The position numbers were made by a program, and so were the translations under genes. A stretch of DNA of 64,000 nt, from the NCBI RefSeq assembly GCF_015074785.1, contig NZ_CP042464.1, forward strand, positions 2,291,001 to 2,355,000, read 5' to 3'. Under the pieces are notes generated by a model. It was given only the letters and a program-made list of their open reading frames with translations, made no database searches and had not been told where the DNA came from. Source of the DNA: Segatella copri. GTDB taxonomy: Bacteria; Bacteroidota; Bacteroidia; Bacteroidales; Bacteroidaceae. Shown piece by piece: positions 4,191-26,199 of the stretch (positions are counted from its first letter, which is position 1; the number at the start of each line of letters is the position of its first letter).

Positions 4191-4463
4191 ATTTTATCCC
4201 AAAAATTTAACTCTGTTAACCAAATAGGGAGACAGAAACCTAAAGACAAACGACAAGACCACCCACCACCCCACCATTCAGCACTAACAAACTTCAGAAA
4301 AAGAAGGCTATCTCCTACCATTAACCATGAATCCTACATATCCATTACTCCCCTCCATTAAAGATTCTAACGACAACAAGAAAAGTGATGAACGAATAAT
4401 CCATACCCCATAAAAGGTGTAAAAATCAACCACTAACCAACAAAATCCTAGAAAATCGAGTCA

Positions 4464-4500
4464 GTGAAATACCACTTCAAAATCCCGCTTTACCTTTGCA
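4464..4500 (+). promoter_or_regulatory. Palindrome-type promoter P1 of the cas1 operon
   Basis: GTGAAATACCACTTCAA (4464-4480, an imperfect copy of the shared palindrome), then exactly 10 nt, then the -7 box TACCTTTGCA (4491-4500). The cas1 ATG is 24 nt further on. The same arrangement occurs five more times in the first 24 kb. The palindrome covers the place where the -33 element would be, so a regulator bound there should affect RNA polymerase directly; which regulator is not visible. Confidence 0.8.
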
Positions 4501-4524
4501 CCCAGAAATCAAAACCATAAACAT

Positions 4525-5502
4525 ATGGAGATCGTATTAAATTCATATGGTGCTAAACTTAGCATCAACAATGGAGCTTTCATGCTCAACAATTCAACAG
4601 GAAGCCATCGCATACCTGTTAAAGACGTGGATTCCATCTTAGTAGCCAAGAGTGCCGTACTCACATCCGACGCCTTGATACTTGCCATTGAAAATGATAT
4701 CAGGGTCACGCTGGCCGACAAAGGTGGCAACGTTATGGGATGCGTATGGAGCCACAAATATGGTTCCATCTCCACCATCAGAAAAGGGCAGCTGATATTC
4801 ACGGCATCACAGGATGCAGTGGAATGGATCAAAAAGGTCATCATCCAAAAGATGCAAAACCAACTGACCCTGCTCCTCATGCTGCAGGTAGATACAGGGC
4901 AGAAGGAACTCATCGTTGAGGAAGCTGGCAACAAAATCAGCAAACTCATCGCAAAGGTAGATGCCCTGGAAGGATTCACGGTAAAAGAAATCGCCAATAA
5001 CCTCAGAGCCTATGAAGGCAATGCCTCCAAGGAATACTTCCGGGCATTGAATCAATTCATTCCTGAGAAATACCGGTTCAAGGAGCGCTCACAACATCCG
5101 GCTACAGATGTTGCCAACGCCATGCTCAACTACGGATACGGTATCCTGTATGGAAAGATTGAGAATGCACTCATTCGCTGCGGCATAGATCCCTATATAG
5201 GCATTCTCCACAGAGACGAGTATGGAAGACCCGTCCTTTCCTATGATGTGATAGAACTCTACAGGGTATGGATAGACTATATTGTCTATTCCCTGCTGGC
5301 ACAAAATATCATAACAGAGGACTACTACTCCCGAGACGAAAGAGGAGCAGTATGGCTGGAAGCCCTGGGAAGAAGAGTCATCATCCAGTCAGTCAATGAC
5401 TACCTCTCAGAGAATGAATCCATCAAGGGAATGACCAGAAGCAGAGAAACCCATATATTTCTCTATATGCAAAAATTCGCACAACAATTAAAACACTACT
5501 AA
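4525..5502 (+). CDS. cas1: CRISPR-associated endonuclease/integrase Cas1
   Basis: A 325-residue Cas1, the metal-dependent integrase that inserts new spacers at the leader end of arrays as a complex with Cas2. The expected catalytic residues are present: Glu164 in LRAYEGNAS, His229 in GILHRDEYG, and Asp241/Glu244 in SYDVIELYR. The N-terminal beta-rich domain (MEIVLNSYGAKLSI) and helical C-terminal domain are of normal length. There is no fused reverse transcriptase or Cas6. It is the first gene of a tight operon: its TAA ends 1 nt before the ATG of the primase-like gene, and cas2 follows. Expression is from promoter P1. Confidence 0.97.
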   Translation: MEIVLNSYGAKLSINNGAFMLNNSTGSHRIPVKDVDSILVAKSAVLTSDALILAIENDIRVTLADKGGNVMGCVWSHKYGSISTIRKGQLIFTASQDAVEWIKKVIIQKMQNQLTLLLMLQVDTGQKELIVEEAGNKISKLIAKVDALEGFTVKEIANNLRAYEGNASKEYFRALNQFIPEKYRFKERSQHPATDVANAMLNYGYGILYGKIENALIRCGIDPYIGILHRDEYGRPVLSYDVIELYRVWIDYIVYSLLAQNIITEDYYSRDERGAVWLEALGRRVIIQSVNDYLSENESIKGMTRSRETHIFLYMQKFAQQLKHY

Positions 5503-5503
5503 T

Positions 5504-6550
5504 ATGAAAGAGCAGACTGTATCATTGGGAACCAAGATCGTGGCTGCCAATGAAAAATTGACATCTATCAATATGATAGACCTATTCGAGATGATTGCTC
5601 ACCCAGAGCCATCACTCAGAAATCAGACAGAAGTCCTGCGCAGTATCCAGCGCATGGACAGTGCCAAATACAACCTGATGAAAAAATCACTCCCCTACTT
5701 TGTCTGCGCCCACTTTGCCCCAGACTACAGAAGAAAGGAAAACTTCTCATCAGTATCATCACTTGTCCTAGACATAGACCATGTGGACGAGAAGAGCATC
5801 CAGCTGGATGAGCTGAAAGCAGAACTGGCAAAAGACGAGCGCATCGCCATGATGTTCACCTCTCCTAGCGGTTGTGGCTTGAAACTCATCTTCCTGCTCG
5901 ACAAACCATGCCTGGATAAAAACATCTATTCATCATTCTACAAGCAGTTCGCCTGGGACTTCGCCAAGGAACATCACTTGGAAACATTCATTGACCTCAA
6001 AACCAATGACGTGACCAGAGCCTGCTTCATTCCTGCGGACGACCATGCCATCCTTAACATGACAGCCACACCTGTCAACTTGGAGAACTATGTGGACCTG
6101 GATTGCGTGGACCAGTTCATCAAGGAAGACAAAATGCCAAGCATCAGCCAAGAGAAACAAGTACAGGACCTGGAACCAGTAGAAAAGAAGCTGGATCCTG
6201 ACCAGGAAACCATGAACAGAATCAAAGAAAGACTCGAACTGAGCCAAAAGAAGAAACTGCCCCAGGAAGTTCGCCCAATCTATGTTCCCGAGGAAATCAC
6301 CAACATAGTCACTGACCTGAAGCAATCCATAGAAAAAACAGGAGTAGAACTGTATGATACCAGAAACATCCAGTACGGCATCAAACTCATGTTCCGTACC
6401 CATCAACTAAAAGCAGAAATCAACCTGTTCTTCGGGCACAAGGGATACTCGGTGGTAGAATCTCCCAAGAGAGGAACCTCCATGCAACTCAATGGCATGA
6501 TGGCGCAACTGGTAAATGATTACATACAAACGCTAAGATATACCTCATGA
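5504..6550 (+). CDS. BT4734-like/VirE_N (primase-like, AEP-related) protein inside the adaptation operon
   Basis: A 348-residue protein matching the BT4734-like N-terminal (VirE_N) domain, which has been placed with archaeo-eukaryotic primase (AEP)-type folds. The AEP-like motif series is intact: LVLDIDHVD with Asp90/Asp92, SPSGCGLK at 120-127, and FIDLKTNDVTR with Asp164. No helicase domain follows; the C-terminal third (about 250-348) is unassigned. It lies between cas1 and cas2, 1 nt after the cas1 stop and overlapping cas2 by ATGA, so it should be translated with them. CRISPR-associated primase-polymerases are known next to cas1/cas2 elsewhere; this looks like a Bacteroidetes version. A paralogue at 27986-29872 has lost the acidic motif. 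Activity on RNA or DNA is not shown by the sequence. Confidence 0.8.
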   Translation: MKEQTVSLGTKIVAANEKLTSINMIDLFEMIAHPEPSLRNQTEVLRSIQRMDSAKYNLMKKSLPYFVCAHFAPDYRRKENFSSVSSLVLDIDHVDEKSIQLDELKAELAKDERIAMMFTSPSGCGLKLIFLLDKPCLDKNIYSSFYKQFAWDFAKEHHLETFIDLKTNDVTRACFIPADDHAILNMTATPVNLENYVDLDCVDQFIKEDKMPSISQEKQVQDLEPVEKKLDPDQETMNRIKERLELSQKKKLPQEVRPIYVPEEITNIVTDLKQSIEKTGVELYDTRNIQYGIKLMFRTHQLKAEINLFFGHKGYSVVESPKRGTSMQLNGMMAQLVNDYIQTLRYTS

Positions 6551-7011
6551 AAGGAAACCATCTCATCGAAACCAGACTGATTGGTCAGGCCGGCTTATCC
6601 GGCACAGGAACCATCGGTAGAGTAACGGGTAATTTAGACGAGCTCCCCACCCTACCGGAAAGAATCAGACAGATACTGAACATCATCTCTTCAGCAGAAA
6701 GGAAACCAGGATATATGATATGCTTCATCATGTACGACATCACCAGCAACAAGGTCAGAACATTGATTGCAAAGTTCCTACTGAAAAAAGGATGTACTAG
6801 GGTCCAGAAGTCCATCTTCATGGCAGACATGCCATCTGATGAAGTTCAAGACATAGCCCAGAAACTTACAGAGATTCAAAAGATGTATGATAACAACGAC
6901 AGCATACTGATTGTCCCACTATCAGAGGACTATGCCAGAGCCATGAAGATCATTGGTCAGGAAGTAGATATCGATCTTATCCTGCATTCCAAAAACACCC
7001 TGTTTTTCTAG
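6547..7011 (+). CDS. cas2: CRISPR-associated protein Cas2 with N-terminal extension
   Basis: A 154-residue protein. The Cas2 ferredoxin-like core starts near residue 55 with ICFIMYDITSNKVRTLIAKFL, followed by KGCTRVQKSIFMAD, the usual beta1-alpha1-beta2 pattern with the conserved Asp (YDI). The first roughly 50 residues (including GLSGTGTIGRVTG) are an extension not present in typical Cas2 of 90-100 residues. Cas2 is the structural partner of Cas1 in spacer integration. The ATG overlaps the stop of the primase-like gene (ATGA at 6547-6550), indicating translational coupling. The next gene has its own promoter P2, so cas2 appears to end the operon, though no terminator hairpin is visible. Confidence 0.93.
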   Translation: MKGNHLIETRLIGQAGLSGTGTIGRVTGNLDELPTLPERIRQILNIISSAERKPGYMICFIMYDITSNKVRTLIAKFLLKKGCTRVQKSIFMADMPSDEVQDIAQKLTEIQKMYDNNDSILIVPLSEDYARAMKIIGQEVDIDLILHSKNTLFF

Positions 7012-7043
7012 GCTTAAACACAAAATCAAGGAAAAATGAGCCA

Positions 7044-7080
7044 GTGAAATATCATTTCACTATGTTCAAGTACCTTTGCA
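7044..7080 (+). promoter_or_regulatory. Palindrome-type promoter P2
   Basis: A perfect palindrome GTGAAATATCATTTCAC (7044-7060), 10 nt, and TACCTTTGCA (7071-7080). It serves the 102-residue gene at 7166, leaving an 85-nt 5' UTR. Confidence 0.8.
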
Positions 7081-7165
7081 CCCGAAATAAAACGAAAGCT
7101 ATTTCTCCCCACTTCTGTAGGAGGATAGCAATGTATAAATATAAAGTAATAAAAACAAGAGAACA

Positions 7166-7474
7166 ATGAAATTCATCAACTTAACACCCCACACCATCAC
7201 CCTGAATGATGGCACAAGCTTCCCTACGGAAGGAAATGCAAGAGTAGCAGATATCTATACCAAGTTCAATGCAAACGGTATTTGCAAGGTTAAACACGGA
7301 GAGATCGAAAATCTCCCGGAACCAGAAGCCAACACCACCTTCATCGTATCGGCCATGGTACTCGCAGCAGCAAAGGAAAAAGGCAGAGAAGATGTGGTAG
7401 CCCCTGCTACCGGACACCCTGAGTGCAAAAGAGAAAACGGCTTCATCGTTTCTGTCCCTGGATTCGTCCACTAG
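7166..7474 (+). CDS. Small conserved phage/actinobacterial-type protein (starts MKFINLTPHTITL)
   Basis: A 102-residue soluble protein. The pattern NLTPHTITLNDGTSFPTEGNARV, then GEIENLPEPEANTTFIVSAMVLAAA and DVVAPATGHPE, matches a small family I remember from phages and Streptomyces-type genomes, where members are simply called hypothetical. I know of no established function. It is a single gene between the cas2 operon and the next palindrome promoter, and is itself driven by palindrome promoter P2, so it is probably expressed together with cas1. The ATG at 7166 follows a purine-rich stretch (AAAACAAGAGAACA). Length is complete for this family. Confidence 0.7.
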   Translation: MKFINLTPHTITLNDGTSFPTEGNARVADIYTKFNANGICKVKHGEIENLPEPEANTTFIVSAMVLAAAKEKGREDVVAPATGHPECKRENGFIVSVPGFVH

Positions 7475-7546
7475 ACAATGCCACAGGCGCATATAATAAG
7501 GTAAGGGAGACCCTCTCAACTGACAAAATCAAGGAAAATTGAGTCA

Positions 7547-7583
7547 GTGAAATATCATTTCACCGAGTTTCCCTACCTTTGCA
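7547..7583 (+). promoter_or_regulatory. Palindrome-type promoter P3
   Basis: A perfect palindrome GTGAAATATCATTTCAC (7547-7563), 10 nt, then TACCTTTGCA (7574-7583). It drives the two-gene unit starting at 7654. Confidence 0.8.
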
Positions 7584-7599
7584 CACAGAAAACCAAAGC

Positions 7600-7622
7600 C
7601 GCTATGGTTAAGTAAGTTAGCG
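7600..7622 (+). promoter_or_regulatory. Conserved 5' UTR hairpin downstream of P3
   Basis: CGCTA pairs with TAGCG around a loop containing TGGTTAAG. The same element is found after P5 (23622-23643), and after P4 (14393-14410) with the pair CCTA/TAGG. The compensating change argues for an RNA structure in the leaders of these transcripts. Confidence 0.55.
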
Positions 7623-7653
7623 ACACTATTGACATATGTAAATTTCAAATATC

Positions 7654-7893
7654 ATGACAATTTTAAGTATTATCATCGGGATCATCATCCTACTGGATGT
7701 ATTGACATTCCTGGTAAAAGCTACCGGCAATGCAAGTAACTTCATGTGGTACCTCTGCCGCCCACTCTGGGGTATCCTCGGCAATGGAGTGTATCAGAAC
7801 ATCTCCATGTTCATCGGTCTCCTCATCCGCTTGGCAGAAGCCGTCGTACTCACACACATCGTAGAAAACCTCTTCAGACAGTTAGTAGCATGA
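7654..7893 (+). CDS. Small membrane protein, two predicted transmembrane helices
   Basis: A 79-residue hydrophobic protein. One helix spans about residues 2-22 (ILSIIIGIIILLDVLTFLV) and a second about 50-70 (ISMFIGLLIRLAEAVVLTHIV), joined by a loop with aromatic and proline residues. I do not recognise the family. Its stop overlaps the start of the next gene (ATGA at 7890-7893), so it is translationally coupled to the S1/Schlafen-like protein and may anchor it or act with it. Both are controlled by P3. Confidence 0.7.
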   Translation: MTILSIIIGIIILLDVLTFLVKATGNASNFMWYLCRPLWGILGNGVYQNISMFIGLLIRLAEAVVLTHIVENLFRQLVA

Positions 7894-9116
7894 GCAAAGT
7901 CACCATTCCAAGCAGGGCTTCCTACCAGGTTAGGAACCCTGCATCAGAAGAAAGTCCCTTCCTAGAAGCAGACTGGGCCCCAATCAATGCCCATCAGGTA
8001 TATCAAGCCTTGAAAAGAATGCAATGCAGAAATCACCAGGCAACATCAGCCTATAAATGCAAAGGTTTGGGAGCCCCATACAAGACAAGCCAGCAACAGG
8101 AAAACTGGCTAGGAGCAATCATCAATCATTTCAATCAAAATACAAATATTCAGTTAAAACATATCAAGACTATGTGCAAATTCAACAAATTCAATGGTAA
8201 AGTTACCAACTACTACAGCAACATGTATGTCATCGAAGTAGATGACAAGACTATCTACATCCCATTCAGCGTGATGCATAAATTCCCGGCATTTCCACAA
8301 TCCATGATGGAAGATGGTCACCTCAAGATCGGCGTAACAGTCATCATGGTGAAAAAAGACGAGAAGACATACTACCCTGACCATGAAACCTACGGAGTCA
8401 ACAACAATCAGGAACATAAGCTGAACATCGATGGTACTTACCTGCTCAAGGATACAAAAGCGTATAAGCAGTCCAACAGCCTTCCAGAACTGATGGCTCA
8501 ACTCAGCACACAGCTGCCTTCACTTCAAGAGGACCTGAGATTGGAAACGCTGAAAGTAATCTCAGCTATCAACATGACAGAGGAGCAAAAGGTAGAGAAA
8601 CTTACATCCATGGTAGACTTCCCATTGGACTTCGTAGAGTCACAGATCCTGGAAAAGAAGGCAAGCCTGTTCTATGCACCAGGCAATACCAAGGATGACA
8701 GAGCACAACTCAAGGAGATCGTAGAATCAATCGTTGCCATGTGCAATAGCGAGGAACAGAAACAATGCCAACTCATCATAGGAGTGAACGACAAGACCAA
8801 TAAGACTTGCAAACTCCAGGATGAAATCGCCTCCAACTATCCACAGATGGCCAACCTCGACCAGTTTCAGAATACCCTGCTGGTTCCGTTCATCAAGTCA
8901 TACACCTACGACAATGCCCTGCTCATGTCATCCCTCAAATACAACTGGTACAACTACAATGGTGACCTGATCCTCATTATAGACATCAACTACCACGGAG
9001 ATCCTATCATCTGCAAAGGTGGCAGACTCCCCTACCGGTGCGACTCCGCCAAAATGATTGCTGAAGGAGTGGACCTGGTAAACATGGTCAAGAAACTGAC
9101 AAGAAATGCCGCATAA
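7890..9116 (+). CDS. S1-like plus Schlafen AlbA_2-like domain protein
   Basis: 408 residues from the ATG at 7890. A start at 7746 in the same frame would run through the upstream gene, so the ATGA overlap is preferred. Residues about 95-150 (GKVTNYYSNMYVIEVDDKTIYIPFSV, then LKIGVTVIMVKKDEKTYYP) resemble an S1/OB RNA-binding fold. The last third has LKEIVESIVAMCNS, QCQLIIGVNDKTNKTCKL, DLILIIDINYHGDPIICKGG and LPYRCDSAKMI, the pattern of the Schlafen AlbA_2 domain. Such domains bind nucleic acid, and eukaryotic relatives cut tRNA. An RNA-directed role is therefore plausible but is inference. It is co-regulated with cas1 through a shared palindrome promoter, which makes it a candidate CRISPR accessory or effector protein. 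Confidence 0.65.
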   Translation: MSKVTIPSRASYQVRNPASEESPFLEADWAPINAHQVYQALKRMQCRNHQATSAYKCKGLGAPYKTSQQQENWLGAIINHFNQNTNIQLKHIKTMCKFNKFNGKVTNYYSNMYVIEVDDKTIYIPFSVMHKFPAFPQSMMEDGHLKIGVTVIMVKKDEKTYYPDHETYGVNNNQEHKLNIDGTYLLKDTKAYKQSNSLPELMAQLSTQLPSLQEDLRLETLKVISAINMTEEQKVEKLTSMVDFPLDFVESQILEKKASLFYAPGNTKDDRAQLKEIVESIVAMCNSEEQKQCQLIIGVNDKTNKTCKLQDEIASNYPQMANLDQFQNTLLVPFIKSYTYDNALLMSSLKYNWYNYNGDLILIIDINYHGDPIICKGGRLPYRCDSAKMIAEGVDLVNMVKKLTRNAA

Positions 9117-9124
9117 CATATAAG

Positions 9125-9152
9125 GAGGACTGCCCAAGCAAAGGCAGTCCTC
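9125..9152 (+). terminator. Terminator-like hairpin after the S1/Schlafen-like gene
   Basis: A perfect 10-bp stem, GAGGACTGCC with GGCAGTCCTC, starts 9 nt after the stop. There is no T-run, so termination is uncertain. The rest of the gap to 9478 has no gene; it holds an inverted repeat ACCTTTAGccagCTAAAGGT (9356-9375) and a likely promoter box TACTTTTGCA near 9335. Confidence 0.5.
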
Positions 9153-9478
9153 TGATAATCAGAGGGGAAAAAATCCAGAAAAGATCAATTGGAAAAAAAG
9201 ATAGCAGAACAGATGGTAAAAACTTTGAAACAAAAGAAACATCAGAAAAAGATTGTACCATCAGTTCATACACAGAAGCAGGCATTTGGTACAATCAACA
9301 GATAGGATGTAGCATTGTTTGCTCATTTTTATCTACTTTTGCACTAGAAATGTTTACCTTTAGCCAGCTAAAGGTATATATGGATGTGCAAAGGTACTCT
9401 AAAACATTTAGTAATAAATAAAATCATTGCACCCATGATTTTCTAACATTAGAAACAACGTAAAAATAACAATATACA

Positions 9479-9958
9479 ATGAAAATGTTATATGATATAA
9501 TCGCAGGCATCATTTCTATGATTGCCAAAAGTCTTGGAGTTTCATATGCCACAGCCAATGTGGCATGGAGCTTATACCTACAGGGACTGGTGTGTATCCT
9601 ATCCTGCCTCTTGCTTCTCATCCCCATGAGGAAGAGATACAAGCAATTCGGCCTGGATGTGTTCACCATATCAGGAACAATTTCCATTCTTGGCTATACA
9701 TATCTGATCTTCTCCAACTGGTTCAATTTCATCAGCCCATTCATTGGACTTAGCTTTCAGACACAGCATAAAGCACTCATCAACTATACAAAGATGACGG
9801 GGATGCAATGGCACATGAGTTACCAGAGTGTTTATATCATCCTCTTTGTCTTCCTGGGAATGGCACTAATAGGATCGAACATCATTCTGCTAGTATGGTT
9901 CAACAAACTTGCCAAGAAGACCAGCAATGAACTGATAAGTTTTCCTGTATCGAAATAA
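9479..9958 (+). CDS. Integral membrane protein of unknown function
   Basis: 159 residues with four predicted transmembrane segments, near 5-25, 30-48 (LQGLVCILSCLLLLIPM), 60-80 (ISGTISILGYTYLIFS) and 118-140 (VYIILFVFLGMALIGSNIILL). I do not recognise the family. It lies 23 bp before an alpha/beta hydrolase gene and probably forms an operon with it and the next two envelope genes. No shared palindrome promoter lies in front, so it is likely outside the CRISPR regulon. Confidence 0.6.
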   Translation: MKMLYDIIAGIISMIAKSLGVSYATANVAWSLYLQGLVCILSCLLLLIPMRKRYKQFGLDVFTISGTISILGYTYLIFSNWFNFISPFIGLSFQTQHKALINYTKMTGMQWHMSYQSVYIILFVFLGMALIGSNIILLVWFNKLAKKTSNELISFPVSK

Positions 9959-9981
9959 CCCAACATACAAAAGAAGAATAT

Positions 9982-11112: not shown

Positions 11113-11131
11113 TAAAGTCAAAGTTTAGATT

Positions 11132-11797: not shown

Positions 11798-11810
11798 AAA
11801 AGAATATTCT

Positions 11811-12491: not shown

Positions 12492-12512
12492 GAGTCCAAA
12501 CCAACCAAGATT

Positions 12513-13160
12513 TTGCTTATAATTTTGTCGCAGGAGTTCCGTAATAACCATACAGAACCCAAAATACAAAGTAAACTATCATAACTATACATTCAATTAT
12601 CTAAGAACTGATAAGGTCTATTCTTAGGGTATGCCCCATTTTGGTGTACCCTAAAGAATGGACTGCTCAAAAGCAAGCATATCAAAAACAAAAAATCCCC
12701 ACTAAATCAACCCACTCCAGATTCATTCAAAACCACAACCAAGTGGAAAAATAAAGAACCTTTGGCCAGATGTAAGAGTATGAACACTACACCTACTTAG
12801 TTGAGAAGTGACACAGCTCTTTCCCAAACCAAAGGTAGAAAGGCTGATGAAAGCAACAAGGTTAGTGCTCATTTGCCACTATGCAAGTATATCCTACATT
12901 TAGTCGTACATACTTGGGAGCAACCTTTCTTTAATGCAGTTGGCACTTCTCAGTCAGCCCAATTCCGGCCAATATCCAACTGCTATGCAAAACATTGGTG
13001 GTAAAAATGAGAAAGTCTATGCACCCTCTCCCTCTATCCAACGTTTTTGGTTTATAACAATTGATCAATGCATTTAACAGAAATACACCATCAATAATAA
13101 AATACATAGGTACTATCAAACAGAGATTATCCCTTATTGTAGTGGAAGATGGTCTCGTAC
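12513..13160 (+). repeat. Trailer-side block of array 2, copy 1 (homologous to 19126-19831)
   Basis: No gene. The sequence from TTATAATTTTGTCGCA through the first degenerate repeat of array 2 is homologous to 19126-19831. Shared parts include an AGGGTA...TACCCT hairpin (about 12626-12652), a near-identical stretch of roughly 75 bp starting GGCCAGATGTAAGAGTATGA, and a long stem GCAGTTGG...CCAACTGC (about 12936-12983). A minus-strand -7 box TACCTTTG (12830-12837) is also shared, so a minus-strand non-coding transcript is possible. Open frames here are short and not conserved between the copies. Confidence 0.85.
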
Positions 13161-13897
13161 TTTGACCGCAAAGCATATACTATTACTCCTGATGGAGTTT
13201 GGTAGTCTTAATCCTTGTTGTAGTGGACAATGGTCTCGTACATTATGAAAATTTCAGTAGGCAAAAACGGTGCTGTGTCTTAATCCTTGTTGTAGTGGAC
13301 GAAGGTCTCGTACAGCATTGACCCTGATTATGCCGATGATTATCAGTGAAGTCTTAATCTTTGTTGTAGTGGAAGATGGTCTCGTACTGCTGAGAAAGAC
13401 TGTTATCAGCCAGGCGAACGAGTCTTAATCCTTGTTGTAGTGGACGATGGTCTCGTACGAGTTATTTAACAACAGGTAACGATTCATGGTTGTCTTAATC
13501 CTTGTTGTAGTGGACAATGGTCTCGTACACACTGGTAAAATTACATTCTATAAACAACTTAAGTCTTAATCCTTGTTGTAGTGGACAATGGTCTCGTACA
13601 GGAAGACGAATGGGATGCATGCTATTAGGAATGAGTGAGTCTTAATCCTTGTTGTAGTGGACAATGGTCTCGTACTTAACATTTAAAAAAATTAAGAGTA
13701 TGAAAATTTCAGTCGTCTTAATCCTTGTTGTAGTGGACAATGGTCTCGTACCTCACTGATGATATTGCAACATTCAATGCAAAGGGGTCTTAATCCTTGT
13801 TGTAGTGGACAATGGTCTCGTACTTGAAAGAGTTGAACAAGATTCGCAAGGATGCGGGCGGTCTTAATCCTTGTTGTAGTGGACAATGGTCTCGTAC
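13124..13897 (-). CRISPR. CRISPR array 2, 11 repeats and 10 spacers
   Basis: Same 37-bp repeat as array 1, with repeat starts 13124, 13205, 13277, 13351, 13422, 13492, 13563, 13639, 13715, 13787 and 13861. The repeats become perfect towards the right; those on the left carry variants (GGAAGATGG, GGACGAAGG, TCTTTGTTG), marking the trailer end. The leader is at 13898. Spacers are 33-44 nt. Two of them (13242-13276 and 13676-13714) share the 14-mer ATGAAAATTTCAGT, one with an upstream purine-rich stretch, so both seem to come from starts of related phage genes encoding MKISV. Confidence 0.98.
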
Positions 13898-14055
13898 TCG
13901 ATCTTATAAGACTATACTGATTATCAGTAAGTTAAAGAACTTTACTAAACAAATATTGACTTTACTTAACCGAAAATTAACTATTTCTTAGCGGGTGCAA
14001 AGGTACGACCTTTTTCTGAGATATGCAAGCCAATTATTATTAAATATTTAGCCAT
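13898..14055 (-). promoter_or_regulatory. Leader of array 2 with pre-crRNA promoter
   Basis: Homologous to the leaders of arrays 1 and 3. It has the minus-strand -7 box TACCTTTGCA (13996-14005), 98 bp from the last repeat, and the palindrome TACTGAT-T-ATCAGTA (13915-13929). Beyond it, 14056-14338 has no gene that I can support. Confidence 0.9.
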
Positions 14056-14338
14056 TTTCTGCCCAAAAATTAAGCTCCATTAACCATTGTACGTTCTTCG
14101 CTATAGACTACAAATTCAACAATCAACAAAAAGAAACGCCAAACAATAAGCAAGTCGCCAAGAAGAGCATGAGAAACTTACTCAAAAATTCACTTTTCAG
14201 AAACTTCTCTCACGCCCCTAGCCCTCCTATCTGTCAAACAACAAACAGTATAAAAGTCCAATAAATAAAGGAAAAAGCATGAGTCCTGCATATAACTGAA
14301 AGTATACAAAAACAACAAAAAACAAGAAAAATGAGCAA

Positions 14339-14375
14339 GTGAAATATCTTTTCACTATATACCCTTACCTTTGCA
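14339..14375 (+). promoter_or_regulatory. Palindrome-type promoter P4
   Basis: GTGAAATATCTTTTCAC (14339-14355), 10 nt, TACCTTTGCA (14366-14375). It is followed by the conserved 5' UTR element in a variant form, with stem CCTA/TAGG (14393-14410). Confidence 0.78.
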
Positions 14376-14434
14376 CCCAGAAAACCAAAGCACCTATGGT
14401 TAAAGTTAGGAGCACAACAAAAAGAATAAAGACT

Positions 14435-15283
14435 ATGAATACAATGATCAAGAACATTTTAACTAGTTGGGAATCATCCCTCATCCGCTTCCAAAAGATT
14501 GACTGCTGGAATTACTCTGAGAATCTGGCAACATTGGGATGGTACCTACATAACAATGACTGTACAATAGAAGAGTACTACCTGATCAAGTACATCAGAG
14601 ACAGCATCATCGGAGTGAACTTCAACGTCAAGAGCGTACTCAATGCCATCCAGAAACTCATGAACATGGAAGCAGCAAAAGAGAAAGACCTCACAACCAT
14701 GCTAGTGAAAATGGATGGAAACAGAGTTGTCCTGAATGGCCAGGATGTACGCTTCAAGAAGGAGACAGAGAAAATCTTCAAGGAGAAGCTCAAGTTCAAG
14801 AAAGGAATGCTGCTCCGTAACTTCGACATTGAGACGGAAGCTCCACATGACTCCAAAAAGGTAAGACGCATCGTGGAGAAGAGAATGTGCCAGGCCTATC
14901 ACCGGATGCACAAGAAGGATGAAGGCTATAAGACCAGCAACAGAGAGAAGTACTGGATGGACAGAGCCACAGCCTTCCAACTGTACAACATCGGACAGAA
15001 GGAAAAGACTAGAAACACAAGAAGAGGCGAGTCCACCCACTGGAAATGGAAGAAAGATCCTATCACCAACGAATTAGTCCTCAAAAAAAAGATGGGGTAC
15101 AAAAACGAAGAATCTGCACAAAAGGCTATAGCCCAATGGAAGATTAATCACCCATATGATTCCAAAGAGATGACAGCTTACAAATGCAACTACTGCAACA
15201 AGTGGCATATCGGGCACAAATCCAACTTTCAGAATCATCCAGCGATAGATTCCATGATTCCCCAAATGCAGACTTGTTGCTAA
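14435..15283 (+). CDS. Hypothetical protein with C-terminal zinc-binding knuckle
   Basis: 282 residues from the ATG at 14435. The frame is open from 14339, but that start would lie inside promoter P4. I do not recognise the main part. It is strongly basic and helical (residues about 115-250, with KKETEKIFKEKLKFKKG and EKYWMDRATAFQLY), as expected of a nucleic-acid-binding protein. The C-terminus has YKCNYCNKWHIGHKS, a CxxC...HxxxH knuckle common in phage and plasmid proteins. It is the only gene after the leader of array 2 and is driven by palindrome promoter P4, so it belongs to the putative CRISPR-linked regulon. Confidence 0.65.
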   Translation: MNTMIKNILTSWESSLIRFQKIDCWNYSENLATLGWYLHNNDCTIEEYYLIKYIRDSIIGVNFNVKSVLNAIQKLMNMEAAKEKDLTTMLVKMDGNRVVLNGQDVRFKKETEKIFKEKLKFKKGMLLRNFDIETEAPHDSKKVRRIVEKRMCQAYHRMHKKDEGYKTSNREKYWMDRATAFQLYNIGQKEKTRNTRRGESTHWKWKKDPITNELVLKKKMGYKNEESAQKAIAQWKINHPYDSKEMTAYKCNYCNKWHIGHKSNFQNHPAIDSMIPQMQTCC

Positions 15284-15375
15284 GCCATTTAAAAAGAACA
15301 AAGAGAAATATATGGAGTATTCTTGCCAGCGTTGCCAATGTAACAGGAATCAGTGACTATAGCCATCTTCCATGT

Positions 15376-15633: not shown

Positions 15634-15734
15634 AAATACAGTAGTTCTGTAATTTAAAAGTTACAGAATCTATGTGACTTGACCAACTCTTCATATAGAT
15701 GATTAACAATTAAACATAAACAAAGAATAAGAAA

Positions 15735-16142: not shown

Positions 16143-16216
16143 ACAGGAGAGAATAGTCTACCATGTTTACCTTTCAAGGGATAATGGTATTAATAGATAA
16201 CTAAAAGATAATAAAA

Positions 16217-17281
16217 ATGAGTAAGGAAGTAAAGATTTCAGTTATCAAGTTTGAAATGGTCAACGGTAAGAAGACCTATAAGTCGTTTACCTTTAAGTTG
16301 AATCCAAAGGAAATGGCAAAGTTCAAGACCGAGGCAACGGTGAAGAAAAAGGTGGCAGAATACGTAGCGAAAAGTGGCGTATATAAGCCTTCTGAACTTC
16401 AGAACTTAAAATACGACATGAAAGAGTTCCTGGAGGAATGGAAGAAGATGGTTCCTGTGGTGGAAGCTGAAGAGCTTGCGAAACTGGATAAGTCACCGAA
16501 TAATCTAGAGACTCGCGTTACCCCTCATCTCATCAGCCGTCTTGCCGCTGGTGAAATCTTTGTATTCGGCTCTAACGCCATGGGACATCATGATGGTGGT
16601 GCGGCAAAAACAGCCCTGGAGAAGTTCGGTGCTATCAGAGGACAGGGACATGGTTTGCAGGGAATGAGTTACGCCATCGATTCAATGAGTGGTATGGAAG
16701 CTATGAAAAAGGATGTGGATGAATTCATCGAGTTTGCCAAGAATCACCCTGACAAAACATTCTTTGTGACATTGATTGGTTGCGGTATCGCCGGATATTC
16801 TCCAGAAGAAATGGCTCCTCTGTTTGAAAGATGTTACGATCTTGAGAATGTGTGCCTTCCTTCTGAGTTCTGGGACATCATCGGATGGCCTAAGGTTCAG
16901 CAGCCACACTATGATCTCTTACGTTTCCTGGATGCTCAGGAGTTTGCCTATAACCAGGCTTTGAGAGAACTGAAGGAAGGACGAAAGCAAAGCCATTGGA
17001 TATGGTATATCTTTCCACAGCAGAAAGGACTCGGTCATAGCTACAACGCAAACTACTATGGTTTGGATGGCGAGGGTGAAGCCAGAGCCTATATTGAACA
17101 TGAAATTCTGGGTGAAAGACTCCGTGAATGCTGCAAGGCGCTCCTGCTTCACAAGGGTAAGGACATCGAATACATCATGGGAAGCGGAGTTGACGTGATG
17201 AAGCTCAACACCTCTATGAATCTCTTCAATAGAGTAAGTCCGAATGATGTGTTTGAGGAAGTATTGGATGTTTTCTTTTAA
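16217..17281 (+). CDS. A1S_2505-like plus DUF1810 fusion protein
   Basis: 354 residues in three parts. Residues 1-95 are a basic helical segment (KISVIKFEMVNGKKTYKSF). Residues about 100-225 (GEIFVFGSNAMGHHDGGAAKTA, GQGHGLQGMSYAI, FFVTLIGCGIAGYSPEEMAPLF) match the A1S_2505-type phage non-structural family. Residues about 230-354 (LLRFLDAQEFAYNQALRELKEGRKQSHWIWYIFPQ and DVMKLNTSMNLF) match DUF1810. Both domains have been linked by comparative genomics to nucleotide or ADP-ribose chemistry, but neither has a firm function that I can cite. The fusion in one chain is uncommon. Cytoplasmic; no signal peptide. Confidence 0.8.
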   Translation: MSKEVKISVIKFEMVNGKKTYKSFTFKLNPKEMAKFKTEATVKKKVAEYVAKSGVYKPSELQNLKYDMKEFLEEWKKMVPVVEAEELAKLDKSPNNLETRVTPHLISRLAAGEIFVFGSNAMGHHDGGAAKTALEKFGAIRGQGHGLQGMSYAIDSMSGMEAMKKDVDEFIEFAKNHPDKTFFVTLIGCGIAGYSPEEMAPLFERCYDLENVCLPSEFWDIIGWPKVQQPHYDLLRFLDAQEFAYNQALRELKEGRKQSHWIWYIFPQQKGLGHSYNANYYGLDGEGEARAYIEHEILGERLRECCKALLLHKGKDIEYIMGSGVDVMKLNTSMNLFNRVSPNDVFEEVLDVFF

Positions 17282-17518
17282 AAATAAAATAATGACAAAG
17301 GTGACGATTGGACGTTTTAGCGTATGAAGTATTTGGAAATGATGTAATCAAATTTCGCTCTTGTATGCTATTATTTAATGCACAATGTGAGAATAAAGAT
17401 AATCCTTTTAGAAAAGTTCTTATTAGAGAACATTGGTTATTTTAAACAATAAGACCAGGATATGTAAAGTTGTAACAAAAAAAGAAAATGGTAGTAACAA
17501 TCATAAAAATGTGACATA

Positions 17519-18508: not shown

Positions 18509-18519
18509 AAACCATACAT

Positions 18520-19095
18520 ATGGAAACAATTATTTCAACAATTGTGATTGTAGCTTGTACTTATTTCTTTACTCGAAGAAAAGTAAAGCCAACAGAACAA
18601 GGGGCAGCCGGCAGCACACAACCTGAGGCTTCTGCAAACATACAGCAGGAAGAAAAGCAGGAAGAACCTCCACACACCAAGGATTTGTGCATAGAGCTAC
18701 TGAAGCAGTTAAACTGTGAGGTATCTGTTGAAGAAGAGGACGAAAACCGCTTATATTTTCAGTATCAGGGAGAACATTTCATCATTGATGCCACCAACGA
18801 GAGTTTCTTCATTGATATTTGGGATCCAAGGTGGTATATTGTTCCATTGGATGATCTAGAACAAATGTCCAATGTACGTAAGGCAATTAACACTATCAAC
18901 AGCTGGTGTGGAACAACTATTTTTTATACCATAGAAGAAGAAGGACAGAAATTTGTTCTCCATTCCAAACGCCAGTGCATTCTGACCAAGGAAATCCCTC
19001 ATGTGAAAGAATACCTAATGGCGCTATTGAATGATTTTTTCACAGTTCATAACAGGCTGCGTGAAGAAATCGTTCCACAAAATACAGAGAACTGA
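18520..19095 (+). CDS. Hypothetical single-span membrane protein with YbjN-like soluble domain
   Basis: 191 residues: one N-terminal helix (ETIISTIVIVACTYFF) followed by a positively charged stop-transfer (TRRKVK), a low-complexity Gln/Glu-rich linker to residue 55, then a soluble domain of about 130 residues (CIELLKQLNCEVSVEEEDENRLYFQYQGEHFIIDA). That pattern resembles the YbjN/secretion-chaperone-like fold, but the assignment is weak. It is 11 bp downstream of the PBP-like lipoprotein and should be co-transcribed. It would face the cytoplasm or periplasm depending on orientation of the single helix. Confidence 0.5.
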   Translation: METIISTIVIVACTYFFTRRKVKPTEQGAAGSTQPEASANIQQEEKQEEPPHTKDLCIELLKQLNCEVSVEEEDENRLYFQYQGEHFIIDATNESFFIDIWDPRWYIVPLDDLEQMSNVRKAINTINSWCGTTIFYTIEEEGQKFVLHSKRQCILTKEIPHVKEYLMALLNDFFTVHNRLREEIVPQNTEN

Positions 19096-19125
19096 GATAT
19101 CCTATGGTAAGGCAAATATTTTATT

Positions 19126-19831
19126 TATAATTTTGTCGCAAATGTTCTGTAATAACCATACAGTACCCAGAATACAAAGCAAACTATCATCACTCTACAG
19201 TTCAGTTATCTAAGAACTGGTAAGATCTATTCTTAGGGTATGCCCCTATTAGGTGTACCCTACAGAATGGACTGCTCGTAAGCAAGCATACCTAAAACGA
19301 AAGAACTCCCCATAATTGTGCCAAAGCAGAACCCTTCAAGAACCTCAAGCAAGTAAAAAAGAAAGAATCTTTGGCCAGATGTAAGAGTATGAACACTACA
19401 CCTACTTAATTGAGAAGTGACAAAGCTCTTTCACAAACCAAAGGTAGAAAGGCGCAGCTACCATCGTACCCCCTAGGCTGCCTTTCGTTGGAGCAGGTGC
19501 TGTCGCTCCAAACCTTTCTTTTATGCAGTTGGCATTTCTGCGCAATCTCATTCATTGCGAATATCCAACTGCCATGCAAAACATTGGCGGTAAAAATGAG
19601 AACGTAGCTATGACCCTCTCCCTCAATCCAACACTTTCGCAATTGCAAAGTTATATTTTTCCATTGAAATCCCAACACATTGAAGCGTTAATCTTTTGTA
19701 ATATTTGAATATTCCTTTTGGATTATATCAATTTATCTCTACATTTAAAAGAAAAACACCATCGACATTAAGCTATAGTGGAATTATCGAACAGGAATCA
19801 TCCCTTGTTGTAATGGCCGATGGTATCGTAC
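19126..19831 (+). repeat. Copy 2 of the array-2 trailer block, ending in a relic CRISPR repeat
   Basis: No gene. Homologous to 12513-13160 over its full length, with insertions. The AGGGTA...TACCCT hairpin (about 19235-19262), the GGCCAGATGTAAGAGTATGA stretch (starting 19373) and the GCAGTTGG...CCAACTGC stem are kept, the last now with an extra inner stem CGCAAT/ATTGCG. It ends at a single decayed repeat, so the array once attached here has been lost. Confidence 0.85.
19795..19831 (-). CRISPR. Solitary degenerate CRISPR repeat
   Basis: This 37-bp segment ends CCGATGGTATCGTAC and contains CCCTTGTTGTAATGG, corresponding to the terminal repeat of arrays 1-3 with several substitutions. No spacer, further repeat or leader follows; the adjacent 653-residue gene ends 17 bp away. 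Confidence 0.75.
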
Positions 19832-19848
19832 TTTACAGTAATGAGAAG

Positions 19849-21810
19849 TTAAGTAGAATGATCTACCAAAAAATATACGTGTCCCTCTACGTCATATTTA
19901 AACCGATGCCTTGCATCCAGTCTCATGCTAGCTTCAATGGACGATTTCGTTGAATTTGGGAAAAACACCTTCACTTGCTGATAAATTTCGCTAAGAAGCA
20001 ATGGCTTACCGGCCAGAGACAACACCTCATAAATTTTGTCTACCATCGTCCCCCAATAGATATGCTCCCAAGACGCCAACCCATAGTAGCCTGACAATCC
20101 AATGGATTTCACTTCCTTCATTTTAAGCAAATAAACGCGGATGGTATTAACCGTAAGATGACGATAAGTAGGACACCTTCTTAGAAAAATGTCTCTAATT
20201 TCCTCCGCTCTCATAGGTTTACCTCTTTCTTTCAGTATATCCAGTAGCTCATAAGTAACGGAGATTTTGTTTCTTTCAGCCACAAAACCACCTTCACGAT
20301 CCACTTTCAATCCAAAGATATCCAACATCAGATAAGTAAAGAAAGAAATGAAATGCTCCTTACCACCTAATTTCTGAATATCCAACTCCTTTAAAAACAT
20401 ACTAGCCTGATAATGCTCATCCTTGAAACGAGTGGTAGCCAACAGTTCTTTCATCTTCTCAACCAGCTTGGCTATTTCTTTTGTATCAAACAGACATGCA
20501 TTAACCAATATAAATCTATCTTGATAATTGTACTTTCGAAACTGCTTATTTAAAGGATAGCAAGAATTTCTCAAAAATACCAGTTCCATCAGCCCAATGA
20601 CATCCTGCAAATGCTCTTTTTCCAAGATATTCTTACAAATAGGCGAATAGAATCCAATAAACGGCATTTCATACAAAAAGTCGTAATATTTCCAATGTTC
20701 ATCCTGTGTAATTGGTTCAGTATTCTCCCCTATAGGGAAAAAAAGATACTTCTTAAGTTTATATGATTTTATATTGTAGGCTTTCATTAACTCCTGAAGA
20801 GTTCTTCTTTCTGTCCCGATTCCTCTATATTCTAAGAAAAAACACCTTCTTTCATTCCACATTCCACTATTCAGATAATCCGTAAAAAGAGTGAACATCG
20901 GATAATAACCATTTGCCCGATGAAAATCAATCACAAAGGATACCTTTTTATCCGTCATGAATGGAAACAATCCTATTGTGCATAAACAGGTATGTTCAAA
21001 GTCTATGGATGTATATGCCTCTACAAGAAAATCAAGCAAAGAAAACGGATAATGATCGTTCAAGGAATGTTCAAGTTTATATTCAATGTCAAAACGATAT
21101 AATTTATTAAAGCTATGATATGTCCATGATTGGAACATTTCAACTTCATATGTCAATCTATCCTCTACGAAAGGAAATATTTGGACAAAATCTAGCCCTT
21201 TAAAGTTCTTTTTAAAGACAGCATAATGCAATTCCAACAAGAACCTGTTCTTATTAGAAAGACGAGAATAAAGTAACGTTCCCAATGCATCTTTACCCAC
21301 CTTATGCATATATTGCTTAGCATTATCTTGAACATAAAAACTAAACTCGTTATGAAGATCATGCATCAAATATTCCAGACAAAGTAAGAAAACATATAGG
21401 CATGAAGCTGCCCTAGGATAATTATCCACCATCGACATTAAGTGAGATCCCTTCATACAAATGAACTTCAGTATATCTAACGAAGAAGGGAATATTGCCT
21501 GAAATTCCTTGCTATCTTCAGCATTCTCACATAAATGAGCATAACAGATGACCATCTTTTGCATGATTTCATCACCACAAAATTGCTTTACCTCCAAAAG
21601 AGGATCTTGAGAATTAATCGTAGCAAAAACATGCTCTACATCATTGATAACCTTCAATCCTATCCCTGGTATTGCCCACAACTTTTTTATCCCCATAGCC
21701 TGAATGTCTCCAACAGTGAACAGTGAAAGAGCCCACAGTTTGTTGTAAGTAAACGTTGTTATCAGCTTATCGCCTAATAATCTGTATATCGATGTATCAA
21801 TAGTATACAT
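19849..21810 (-). CDS. Large hypothetical protein with HhH-like N-terminus and winged-helix C-terminus
   Basis: 653 residues. The N-terminal 50 (LWALSLFTVGDIQAMGIKKLWAIPGIGLKVINDV) look like a helix-hairpin-helix of the RNA polymerase alpha-CTD kind. The C-terminal 150 contain two repeats of winged-helix type (VTYELLDILKERGKPMRAEEIRDIF and MVDKIYEVLSLAGKPLLLSEIYQQV), as in HARE-HTH or RNA polymerase delta-like domains. The roughly 400 residues between are helical, aromatic-rich and unrecognised. It is probably a DNA-binding or transcription-linked protein. It is AT-richer than its neighbours and stands alone on the minus strand between the relic repeat and array 3. Confidence 0.6.
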   Translation of the reverse strand: MYTIDTSIYRLLGDKLITTFTYNKLWALSLFTVGDIQAMGIKKLWAIPGIGLKVINDVEHVFATINSQDPLLEVKQFCGDEIMQKMVICYAHLCENAEDSKEFQAIFPSSLDILKFICMKGSHLMSMVDNYPRAASCLYVFLLCLEYLMHDLHNEFSFYVQDNAKQYMHKVGKDALGTLLYSRLSNKNRFLLELHYAVFKKNFKGLDFVQIFPFVEDRLTYEVEMFQSWTYHSFNKLYRFDIEYKLEHSLNDHYPFSLLDFLVEAYTSIDFEHTCLCTIGLFPFMTDKKVSFVIDFHRANGYYPMFTLFTDYLNSGMWNERRCFFLEYRGIGTERRTLQELMKAYNIKSYKLKKYLFFPIGENTEPITQDEHWKYYDFLYEMPFIGFYSPICKNILEKEHLQDVIGLMELVFLRNSCYPLNKQFRKYNYQDRFILVNACLFDTKEIAKLVEKMKELLATTRFKDEHYQASMFLKELDIQKLGGKEHFISFFTYLMLDIFGLKVDREGGFVAERNKISVTYELLDILKERGKPMRAEEIRDIFLRRCPTYRHLTVNTIRVYLLKMKEVKSIGLSGYYGLASWEHIYWGTMVDKIYEVLSLAGKPLLLSEIYQQVKVFFPNSTKSSIEASMRLDARHRFKYDVEGHVYFLVDHST

Positions 21811-21905
21811 AATTCTTTTTTATATTTCATTGTTCTTGAATTTCTTGACATAGAAACCATCAAAGAAACTCACATAGTTAACAGTAAAAGTCCATATAAA
21901 ACAGT

Positions 21906-22148
21906 TTAATCTTTCTTGTCAAACATAGAATACATAGCTACCAGAAACACGTTCCTCACTTCAGAATTATCTGACTTAAGCCAAATACCATCCTTGCTAG
22001 CCACATAAACAGCCAACACCATAAGAAGAAAAGAGTACAAGCAGTTAAGCCCAACCTGAGCAGATGTCAAAGCAGCACCAACCCAGAGCAAAGGGATTAC
22101 CAGAACATTTCGCCTGTTTAACCATTCATTGAAAATATATCTATTCAT
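21906..22148 (-). CDS. Small membrane protein
   Basis: 80 residues from ATG 22148 (MNRYIFNEWLNRRNVLVI); the frame extends further upstream to 22184, but that start would overlap the promoter boxes. Two hydrophobic segments (VLVIPLLWVGAALTSA and LNCLYSFLLMVLAVYVA) suggest a helical hairpin in the inner membrane. On the minus strand, TACTTTTG and TACCTTTG boxes lie near 22177-22192. Family unknown; it is about 95 bp upstream of the 653-residue gene on the same strand and may share its transcript. Confidence 0.5.
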   Translation of the reverse strand: MNRYIFNEWLNRRNVLVIPLLWVGAALTSAQVGLNCLYSFLLMVLAVYVASKDGIWLKSDNSEVRNVFLVAMYSMFDKKD

Positions 22149-22364
22149 TATTATAAGTTTAAGCACTTTTATACAAAGGTACAAAAGTATTAAAAATATA
22201 ATAGAATACCAACTTTTCGTTAGGAATTTTACTGATAATTCCTCAAAATACTTGAAAATGAGGCCATTTCTTTAAAAGAAATCTATTTCAGTACCCCCTT
22301 AAAAAGTATCTCTAAGAAAAAAGCACGTTGAACTGTCCACAAGTCTTTAGCACGTAGGCAGTTC

Positions 22365-23216
22365 AAATTAATCCTTGTTGTAGTGGACAATGGTCTCGTA
22401 CTAACTTCATTGGAAGAAATGAAGTTTGCATGTAACAATGCGTCTTAATCCTTGTTGTAGTGGAAGATGGTCTCGTACGTCAGGTAAACCATTCAGCAAT
22501 GTCTGCCTCACAGATGTCTTAATCCTTGTTGTAGTGGACAATGGTCTCGTACAGTGTGATGAAGAATGTTGTCATTGATTGGTATAATCTGTCTTAATCC
22601 TTATTGTAGTGGACAATGGTCTAGTACCAATTCCTGCCAACATGATGACAGGGCAGGCAGCACAGTCTTAATCTTTATTGTAGTGGACAATGGTCTCGTA
22701 CAGATAATAAACATGTTTTACAATTTAATTAATTAAAGTCTTAATCCTTGTTGTAGTGGACAATGGTCTAGTACTCAAGCTGGTTTTCCATAACGATTTG
22801 CGCTATATGAAGTCTTAATCCTTGTTGTAGTGGACAATGGTCTCGTACATAGATAATCCTAATTTTAGAGATATTCTTGATACAATGTCTTAATCCTTAT
22901 TGTAGTGGACAATGGTCTCGTACTTTGGTGATGCCTTTGCACGCTTTCTATTTCTCTGGGTCTTAATCCTTATTGTAGTGGACAATGGTCTCGTACAGTT
23001 CACTAAGCTGGACTATATGTGCAAATACGAGTCTTAATCCTTATTGTAGTGGACAATGGTCTCGTACTCCACTTGGATTTCCCTCTTTCTTTATTATTAA
23101 TTTTGTCTTAATCCTTATTGTAGTGGACAATGGTCTCGTACTTCTGTCACTATTGAACGTTATGAAGATGGCGACACTTGTCTTAATCCTTATTGTAGTG
23201 GACAATGGTCTCGTAC
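22365..23216 (-). CRISPR. CRISPR array 3, 12 repeats and 11 spacers
   Basis: Same repeat family, starts 22365, 22442, 22516, 22591, 22665, 22738, 22812, 22887, 22960, 23031, 23105 and 23180. The leftmost repeat begins AAATTAATCC (degenerate trailer end). The five leader-side repeats all read CCTTATTG where arrays 1 and 2 have CCTTGTTG, so this array has been growing from its own variant repeat. Two repeats read TCTAGTAC at the right end. Leader at 23217. Confidence 0.98.
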
Positions 23217-23372
23217 CAACCTTATAAGACTATACTGATTATCAGTAAGTTAAAGAACTTTACTAAAGAAATATTAACTTTTCTTAACCGAAAATTAACT
23301 ATTCCTTAGCGGGTGCAAAGGTACGACTTTTTTCTGAGATATGCAAGCCAATTATTCTTAAATATTTAGGCC
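23217..23372 (-). promoter_or_regulatory. Leader of array 3 with pre-crRNA promoter
   Basis: Homologous to the other two leaders. Minus-strand -7 box TACCTTTGCA at 23314-23323, 97 bp from the last repeat, and palindrome TACTGAT-T-ATCAGTA at 23233-23247. Homology stops near ATTTAGGCC. Confidence 0.9.
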
Positions 23373-23567
23373 TTCTAGACCTCACAATTTAGTGTTGTTA
23401 ACAACAAATCAAAGAGTTAACCCAAAAAGCACTCTTCAGCATAAAAGTAAACTACACCATCACAATATCATAAACCAACAAATCAAACTACAAAAAACTA
23501 TTCCTCACATATATATAATAAGGTATTATATGCACCCTAAACAACAAAAAACAGGAAAAATGAGCCA

Positions 23568-23604
23568 GTGAAATATCATTTCACGATGTTCTCCTACCTT
23601 TGCA
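23568..23604 (+). promoter_or_regulatory. Palindrome-type promoter P5 (no gene of its own)
   Basis: GTGAAATATCATTTCAC (23568-23584), 10 nt, TACCTTTGCA (23595-23604), followed by the conserved 5' UTR hairpin CGCTA/TAGCG (23622-23643). About 70 nt after the hairpin, promoter P6 begins; no open frame lies between, so the gene that P5 once served appears to be lost. Confidence 0.75.
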
Positions 23605-23714
23605 CCCAGAAAAACCAAAGCCGCTATGGTTAAGTTGTTAGCGACACAGTTGTATCCATTCATAAAAATGGCATAAAACAAAAGAAAGTAGCAAAAAAAG
23701 GGAAAATTGAGTGA

Positions 23715-23751
23715 GTGAAATACCATTTCAAACTCCCACAGTACTTTTGCA
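23715..23751 (+). promoter_or_regulatory. Palindrome-type promoter P6 of the PRTase-DprA-HAD operon
   Basis: GTGAAATACCATTTCAA (23715-23731), 10 nt, TACTTTTGCA (23742-23751). The first phosphoribosyltransferase ATG is 45 nt further. The palindrome variant (ACC centre, CAA end) is the same type as at the cas1 promoter P1. Confidence 0.78.
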
Positions 23752-24333: not shown

Positions 24334-24388
24334 CCCATCAGAAAACAACATAGATTAAAACATATAAAAATCATAAAAAATAATCAGT

Positions 24389-26196: not shown

Positions 26197-26199
26197 GCT

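Follow-up and report, generated by a model that had tools for sequence, protein, structure and literature searches.

We analyzed a 64,000-nucleotide (nt) stretch of Segatella copri DNA (assembly GCF_015074785.1, contig NZ_CP042464.1, positions 2,291,001 to 2,355,000 of the forward strand; hereafter the window, with positions counted from its first letter), in which a type III CRISPR locus carries a repeated promoter element composed of a palindrome, a 10-nt gap (N10), and a -7 box. Promoters of Bacteroidota follow a -7/-33 consensus, and the -7 box of these sites is presumably of the housekeeping Bacteroidota type. Six palindromes were found on the (+) strand at 4464, 7044, 7547, 14339, 23568, and 23715, with 3, 0, 0, 1, 0, and 2 mismatches to GTGAAATATCATTTCAC, respectively, each lying over the -33 region and ending 10 nt before the -7 box. 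A search of both strands of the window with up to 3 mismatches to GTGAAATATCATTTCAC gave 10 matches, compared to a mean of 0.36 and a maximum of 5 in 100 dinucleotide shuffles. When the palindrome (≤3 mismatches) was paired with TACCTTTGCA (≤1 mismatch) and gaps of 0-59 nt were permitted, the window yielded six pairs, and in every one the gap was exactly 10 nt; this bears out the six palindromes at fixed spacing reported by a sequence-only reading of this DNA. For the 27-letter composite, the next best window position already had 8 mismatches, and a further 3-mismatch palindrome at 51368 had no -7 box within 0-59 nt.

Genes and arrays at the locus

Site 1 (4451-4500; upstream block 4451-4463, pseudopalindrome 4464-4480, N10, -7 box 4491-4500) is the promoter of a (+)-strand operon (4525-7011) of cas1 (4525-5502, PF01867), a CRISPR-associated primase-polymerase (PrimPol) type B gene (5504-6550, NF040562), and cas2 (6547-7011, TIGR01573). 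The earlier labels of these three genes held, since Cas1 and Cas2 (like the Schlafen AlbA_2 protein below) scored above their Pfam cut-offs and PrimPol reached 355.7 bits against an NCBIfam cut-off of 200; its position with cas1 and cas2 identifies a type III CRISPR locus with CAPP_B. Site 2 (7031-7080; palindrome 7044-7060, -7 box 7071-7080) is the promoter of a small (+)-strand gene (7166-7474) whose product had been called phage-like and is better described as Unk_01 (PADLOC PDLC01138, E 1e-14), a known family of small CRISPR-ancillary proteins "sometimes fused to CARF". Site 3 (7534-7583; palindrome 7547-7563, -7 box 7574-7583) serves a (+)-strand unit (7654-9116) encoding a 79-amino-acid (aa) protein (7654-7893) and a Schlafen AlbA_2 protein (PF04326, 26.8 bits, cut-off 25.3), the start of which is placed near 7890 from homologues of ~404-408 aa; of its previous label "S1/Schlafen-like", only the second half had Pfam support. 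Site 4 (14326-14375; palindrome 14339-14355, -7 box 14366-14375) precedes a (+)-strand gene without an assigned family (14435-15283, start placed from sequence), which has two weak PHROGs matches of unknown function near its C-terminus and for which a proposed zinc knuckle found no Pfam support.

Sites 5 (23555-23604; palindrome 23568-23584, -7 box 23595-23604) and 6 (23702-23751; palindrome 23715-23731, -7 box 23742-23751, TACTTTTGCA) are the outer and inner tandem promoters of a (+)-strand operon (23797-26700) with two phosphoribosyltransferase (PRTase) genes (23797-24333 and 24389-25123), a DprA/ShosA-like gene (25231-26196), and a HAD gene (26200-26700). Its earlier description as PRTase-PRTase-DprA-HAD stood in part: the PRTases (20.8 and 24.8 bits, cut-off 26.3) and DprA (162.3 bits, cut-off 191.15) fell below their family cut-offs, while the first PRTase matched the ShosT model PDLC03962 (E 5.4e-10) and the DprA-like protein the ShosA model PDLC03961 (E 6.4e-64), and the HAD label comes from the annotation of a 91% identical gene in S. 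copri DSM 18205. With both models matched in one operon, we regard it as putatively ShosTA-like. The excerpt cited on shosTA and similar systems describes DprA homologues as antitoxins (PMC9122126), and the pairing of a PRTase with a DprA homologue is common to that system and this operon; the operon differs in having two PRTases in the window (three in S. copri Indica and DSM 18205) and a HAD gene, and in using the same operator as cas1.

Three CRISPR arrays lie at 2835-4034 (array 1; 17 repeats, ≤9 mismatches), 13124-13897 (array 2; 11 repeats), and 22365-23216 (array 3; 12 repeats), and a (-)-strand promoter points into each of them (-7 at 4142, 14005, and 23323, respectively). Their leaders (4036-4464, 13897-14339, and 23216-23568) are closely similar, and at all three the array promoter stands back to back with an outward-reading palindromic promoter, 245-334 nt apart. 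Further features of the window include a type III RAMP protein (TIGR03986, 413-2677, + strand) from an effector operon cut by the window edge, and a protein (16217-17281) with a C-terminal DUF1810 and a phage-related middle (phrog_2072), parts of which are also encoded next to two further type III loci (G354, G420). With regard to type III regulons of the CalpS kind, in which a dedicated extracytoplasmic function (ECF) sigma factor recognizes a promoter motif of its own, a putative ECF-like sigma gene lies at 58917-59456, 35 kb away; the locus proteins are only partly annotated.

Conservation and confinement of the element

Genus searches were run on sets of 150, 398, 398, 299, and 348 genomes and a family search on 399, all drawn from larger groups. 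Among the 150, the composite pattern occurred in one genome, S. copri Indica, with 7 copies all within 22 kb of one contig (C8). The 3.9 Mb Indica genome had no exact composite match outside this locus, and the core TGAAATNNNNTTTCA occurred in 13 places, 7 of them inside it; scatter across the genome, which the sequence-only reading had named beforehand as refuting its proposal, was thus not seen. The Indica locus is syntenic with the window, comprising the effector operon, an array, cas1-PrimPol-cas2, Unk_01, the Schlafen-like operon, a counterpart of the gene served by site 4, and the PRTase-DprA-HAD operon, with every served unit preceded by its own site. Its seventh site (L009 5441-5880, - strand) precedes a 97-aa gene whose product had no Pfam or PADLOC match, its PRTase operon contains a second Schlafen-like copy, and no CRISPR array precedes that operon. 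A third locus was found in S. copri DSM 18205 on a 167-kb record deposited as a plasmid (NZ_CP085933.1), where two sites are the sole matches. This locus (L083 19892-27936) keeps the PRTase-DprA-HAD operon with both tandem sites and the gene for a 653-aa protein considered below, together with array remnants (4 scattered CRISPR repeats, ≤6 mismatches); the record has no annotated cas gene, and the Cas proteins of the locus were not found on it by tblastn. Separately, window 12507-13042 is 78% related to sequence of this plasmid, and window 19119-19619 is 75% related to Indica sequence.

The gap was 10 nt at all 15 sites (6/6 in the window, 7/7 in Indica, 2/2 in DSM 18205), with strand and distance to the -7 box identical throughout; at one Indica site, an unrelated -7-like word lies on the opposite strand at a different distance. 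Zone by zone, mean pairwise identity among the six window sites (the two DSM 18205 sites being excluded from these statistics) was 0.31 at -60..-26, 0.68 at -25..-14, and 0.84 at -13..-1, followed by 0.90 in the palindrome, 0.33 in N10, and 0.97 in the -7 box, then 0.48 at +37..+60 and 0.35 at +61..+100. The conserved element is therefore longer than first reported, ~30 bp, reaching 13 nt upstream of the palindrome with the consensus GAAAAnTGAGYSA. All 15 sites have the same left arm, GTGAAAT, but differ in the right arm, which makes the element an asymmetric pseudopalindrome; the sites first called palindromes are real, and the label itself needs this correction. None of the six palindromic promoters had a TTTG/TTGG/CTTG/TTTC word at 17-21 nt upstream of the -7 box, versus 4 of the 10 other TACYTTTGCA sites in the window, a contrast that is weak because three of those four are paralogous array promoters.

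Such likeness could also have arisen by descent, if promoter cassettes had been copied within the locus with no dedicated regulator behind them. The intermediate identity of the near flanks (0.68 and 0.48) gives the cassettes a paralogous look; moreover, a 5' leader (AACCAAAGC..CTATGGTTAA) is common to three palindromic promoters of the window (7581-7653, 14373-14430, and 23602-23700), and sites 7547 and 23568, as well as several Indica sites, are preceded at ~40-60 nt by ATATAATAAGGTA or a close variant. Yet the outer flanks (0.31-0.35) and N10 (0.33) have decayed to near random while the element is still at 0.84-0.97 and the gap, whose letters vary, has kept its length, which points to selection rather than recent copying and leaves descent alone a very improbable account. 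As an RNA structure, the shared leader was unsupported (z-scores of 1.04, -1.07, and -0.77, no Rfam match), and the Unk_01 leader gave a z-score of -1.99, likewise with no Rfam match.

A profile (R1) built from the 15 sites of the three loci, window included, scored 59.9-73.7 bits on those sites, values that are high by construction because the same sites define it. Outside them, its maximum was 22.2 bits in Indica, 12.5 bits in the window, and 33.3 bits across the remaining members of the 299-genome set, in which up to 17 candidates per genome were scored under strict filters. Fourteen of the weak genus matches were rescored and 10 alignments inspected; 9 of the 10 had extra bases inside the palindrome, often with a TTTGG-like word, and we rejected these matches as further sites since they look like ordinary promoters. 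One weak match (L128, 27.6 bits) had no bases inserted in the palindrome. When 19 weak-match loci were tested for proteins of the locus, one, L125 (G645), was positive: this best weak match (33.3 bits, interrupted palindrome) is located near a 26% identical WYL gene, which we read as a remote paralogue. A search of genome contigs, which may pass over records very close to the window, gave 24 stretches with matches, of which 4 were from Indica and contained its 7 sites; the other 20 had a single match each and encoded none of the CRISPR-locus proteins of the window (the P3-122 and RUG759 stretches being judged from lists of open reading frames).

The differing gene content between sites in the window and Indica could suggest a recombination or phage-derived site instead of an operator. 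Against this, exact matches in viral contigs numbered 0, megablast, the sole search of this kind, returned no near-identical phage record, and strand and -7 distance were the same at all 15 sites, so that we give this explanation hardly any credence. Collectively, the conserved element amid near-random flanks, its invariant gap, its restriction to the locus in the Indica genome, and its conservation at 15 sites across three loci strongly support the common regulator and CRISPR-linked regulon that had been proposed. Judged from sequence, it is highly probable that the sites mark one dedicated, locus-specific regulon, and a single dedicated protein probably controls the genes behind them jointly.

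Candidate regulators

In Indica, the region upstream of the part shared with the window encodes cas6, a CARF-HEPN protein, a winged helix-turn-helix (wHTH)-WYL-WCX protein, and a second CARF-HEPN protein. The WYL and WCX domains scored above their Pfam cut-offs, and the sequence contains the family's W-Y-L and L-D-R words; the wHTH was seen in the structural model alone, with an alignment spanning full-length DriD. This protein, whose gene lies outside the window, thus has the wHTH-WYL-WCX make-up of a DriD-type regulator. Ranked against the PDB, its model (mean predicted local distance difference test score, pLDDT, 78.9) matched DriD best (E 7.8e-15), followed by PafBC and then by CapW and BrxR, and a WYL family profile found PafBC and DriD entries. 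Among 68 aligned homologues, taken from the best 120 of 652, 53 were at least 51% identical and the remainder at most 38%. In 347 other genus genomes, with up to 6 candidates scored in each, no WYL match exceeded 39% identity, and a test through orthologues elsewhere in the genus failed because there were none. A fixed gap with a variable N10 is what would be expected of an activator touching sigma, and the invariance of the gap argues for contact with the polymerase. The sequence-only reading had named no regulator; we tentatively favor the WYL protein of the CARF operon, acting as an activator, as the most likely regulator, and we infer both its identity and its sign.

Several observations weigh against this assignment. 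The WYL gene is known only from the syntenic Indica locus, beyond the left edge of the window, and NZ_CP085933.1 has kept both sites of the ShosTA-like operon though no WYL orthologue was found on it, the best match being to a WYL gene interrupted by an insertion sequence (37% identity across 110 residues). No palindrome (≤5 mismatches, either strand) precedes the cas6-CARF-WYL-CARF operon, which means no autoregulation through the palindrome. The wHTH is the more variable part of the protein, and the structural model is moderate (pLDDT 78.9, template modeling score 0.46). Ten related PrimPol loci (PrimPol 33-41% identical) had no palindrome in common, and two of the ten carry remote WYL proteins (28% and 36%). 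Among 68 aligned homologues, taken from the best 120 of 652, 53 were at least 51% identical and the remainder at most 38%. In 347 other genus genomes, with up to 6 candidates scored in each, no WYL match exceeded 39% identity, and a test through orthologues elsewhere in the genus failed because there were none.

Retention on NZ_CP085933.1 favors a different protein. The 653-aa protein (19849-21810, - strand), a C-terminal segment of which was modeled as winged helices, is encoded at all three site-bearing loci (71% identical in Indica, 96% on the DSM 18205 plasmid), and its gene was retained beside the two DSM 18205 sites where the cas genes are gone. Against a homologue with 98% identity to the Indica protein, its residues 521-640, including the segments modeled as winged helices, reach ~90% identity, compared to 40-60% for residues 121-280. 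These points also tell against the WYL protein. The HARE-HTH match is, however, sub-threshold (PF05066, 20.5 bits, cut-off 25.9), the model has low confidence (pLDDT 62) and no fold match at E up to 0.001, and no site precedes the gene itself. That this protein, or another DNA-binding protein of the locus, is the regulator seems to us rather unlikely, though the 653-aa protein is a genuine rival.

The sign could also be the reverse, with the WYL protein or another factor occupying the same operators as a repressor of the CapW/BrxR kind, blocking RNA polymerase at -33 and being released on infection. A dimer on the palindrome would cover the -33 region and keep sigma out, and with -7 boxes this close to perfect the unoccupied promoters could be strong; CapW and BrxR are among the structural matches of the WYL model, a type I-D CRISPR system is described in the cited excerpt as being under negative control by a WYL protein (PMC4012209), and payloads of the toxin type are usually held off. 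According to the excerpt on CapW, this wHTH-WYL protein represses its own CBASS (cyclic oligonucleotide-based antiphage signaling system) locus (PMC9122588), and a wHTH-WYL protein on a palindrome in a defence promoter has precedents in CBASS and BREX (bacteriophage exclusion). However, CapW sites overlap the -10, whereas here 10 nt separate the palindrome from the -7 box downstream of it; repressors tolerate variable spacing, yet spacing here is invariant; and the structural ranking favors DriD and PafBC. We therefore consider repression unlikely, although a serious alternative to the WYL activator.

Proposed mechanism and meaning

We propose that the six sites would be operators of one dedicated, locus-specific transcription factor setting the adaptation module (Cas1-PrimPol-Cas2) plus four accessory defence units. 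The factor would be the wHTH-WYL-WCX protein encoded between the two CARF-HEPN genes of the Indica locus, with a mode of action like that of DriD and PafBC. Its WYL domain may bind a nucleic-acid ligand, e.g., single-stranded DNA (ssDNA) from a damaged invader, upon which a dimer would bind the pseudopalindrome, which would stand in for a -33 box, and anchor RNA polymerase carrying the main sigma factor, a contact for which the invariant 10-nt gap would be needed. Invasion would then, in one step, increase spacer acquisition and arm the ShosTA-like and Schlafen-like effectors.

A close parallel is DriD of Caulobacter crescentus, which the cited preprint excerpt describes as an ssDNA-activated activator whose 20-bp pseudopalindromes overlap a poor -35 at a constant distance from the -10, and among whose targets are dnaG, for a primase, and bapE, for an endonuclease whose role is apoptosis-like (PMC12340889, preprint). 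The likeness lies in a pseudopalindrome over the -35/-33 region at a constant distance from the -10/-7 box, the gap being 10 nt at every site here. The DriD regulon is one of chromosomal DNA damage and not of CRISPR, and a site also stands in front of driD itself, unlike the WYL operon; the element also differs in sequence and length, the host phylum is another, and operator binding is predicted here. The excerpts on Csa3a of Sulfolobus describe a single factor that binds a pseudopalindrome ahead of both the CRISPR leader and the cas1-cas2-cas4-csa1 operon and raises adaptation (PMC8844856; PMC10013973), which resembles the arrangement proposed here. In contrast to our WYL candidate, Csa3 is a CARF-wHTH protein; the CARF proteins here match CARF-HEPN/Csx1 models, with Csa3 absent from the best 25 of 27 and the best 25 of 29 families matched. 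The further Csa3a targets given in these excerpts are DNA-repair genes, not a toxin operon.

A partial literature search returned no published account of this regulon, nor of one locus-specific operator shared by adaptation genes and a ShosTA-like operon, and the relevant excerpt of a 2024 survey of type III loci deferred transcription factors such as WYL and Csa3 (PMC11229360). The parts are of known kinds, and their predicted combination under one locus-specific operator appears new relative to the literature searched. By analogy with DriD, it is conceivable, and we offer it with some reservation, that a damage-type switch is built into a type III CRISPR locus, namely a WYL activator that would sense invader ssDNA and, through one DriD-like promoter architecture, turn on acquisition (Cas1-PrimPol-Cas2) together with suicidal modules (ShosTA-like, Schlafen-like). 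The finding bears on the timing of type III spacer acquisition and its possible tie to suicidal effectors, a question made testable in a gut commensal, for which we name an operator with its six to seven target promoters and a candidate regulator. If true, memory making would be tied to abortive infection, and a ShosTA-like system would be under CRISPR-linked control.

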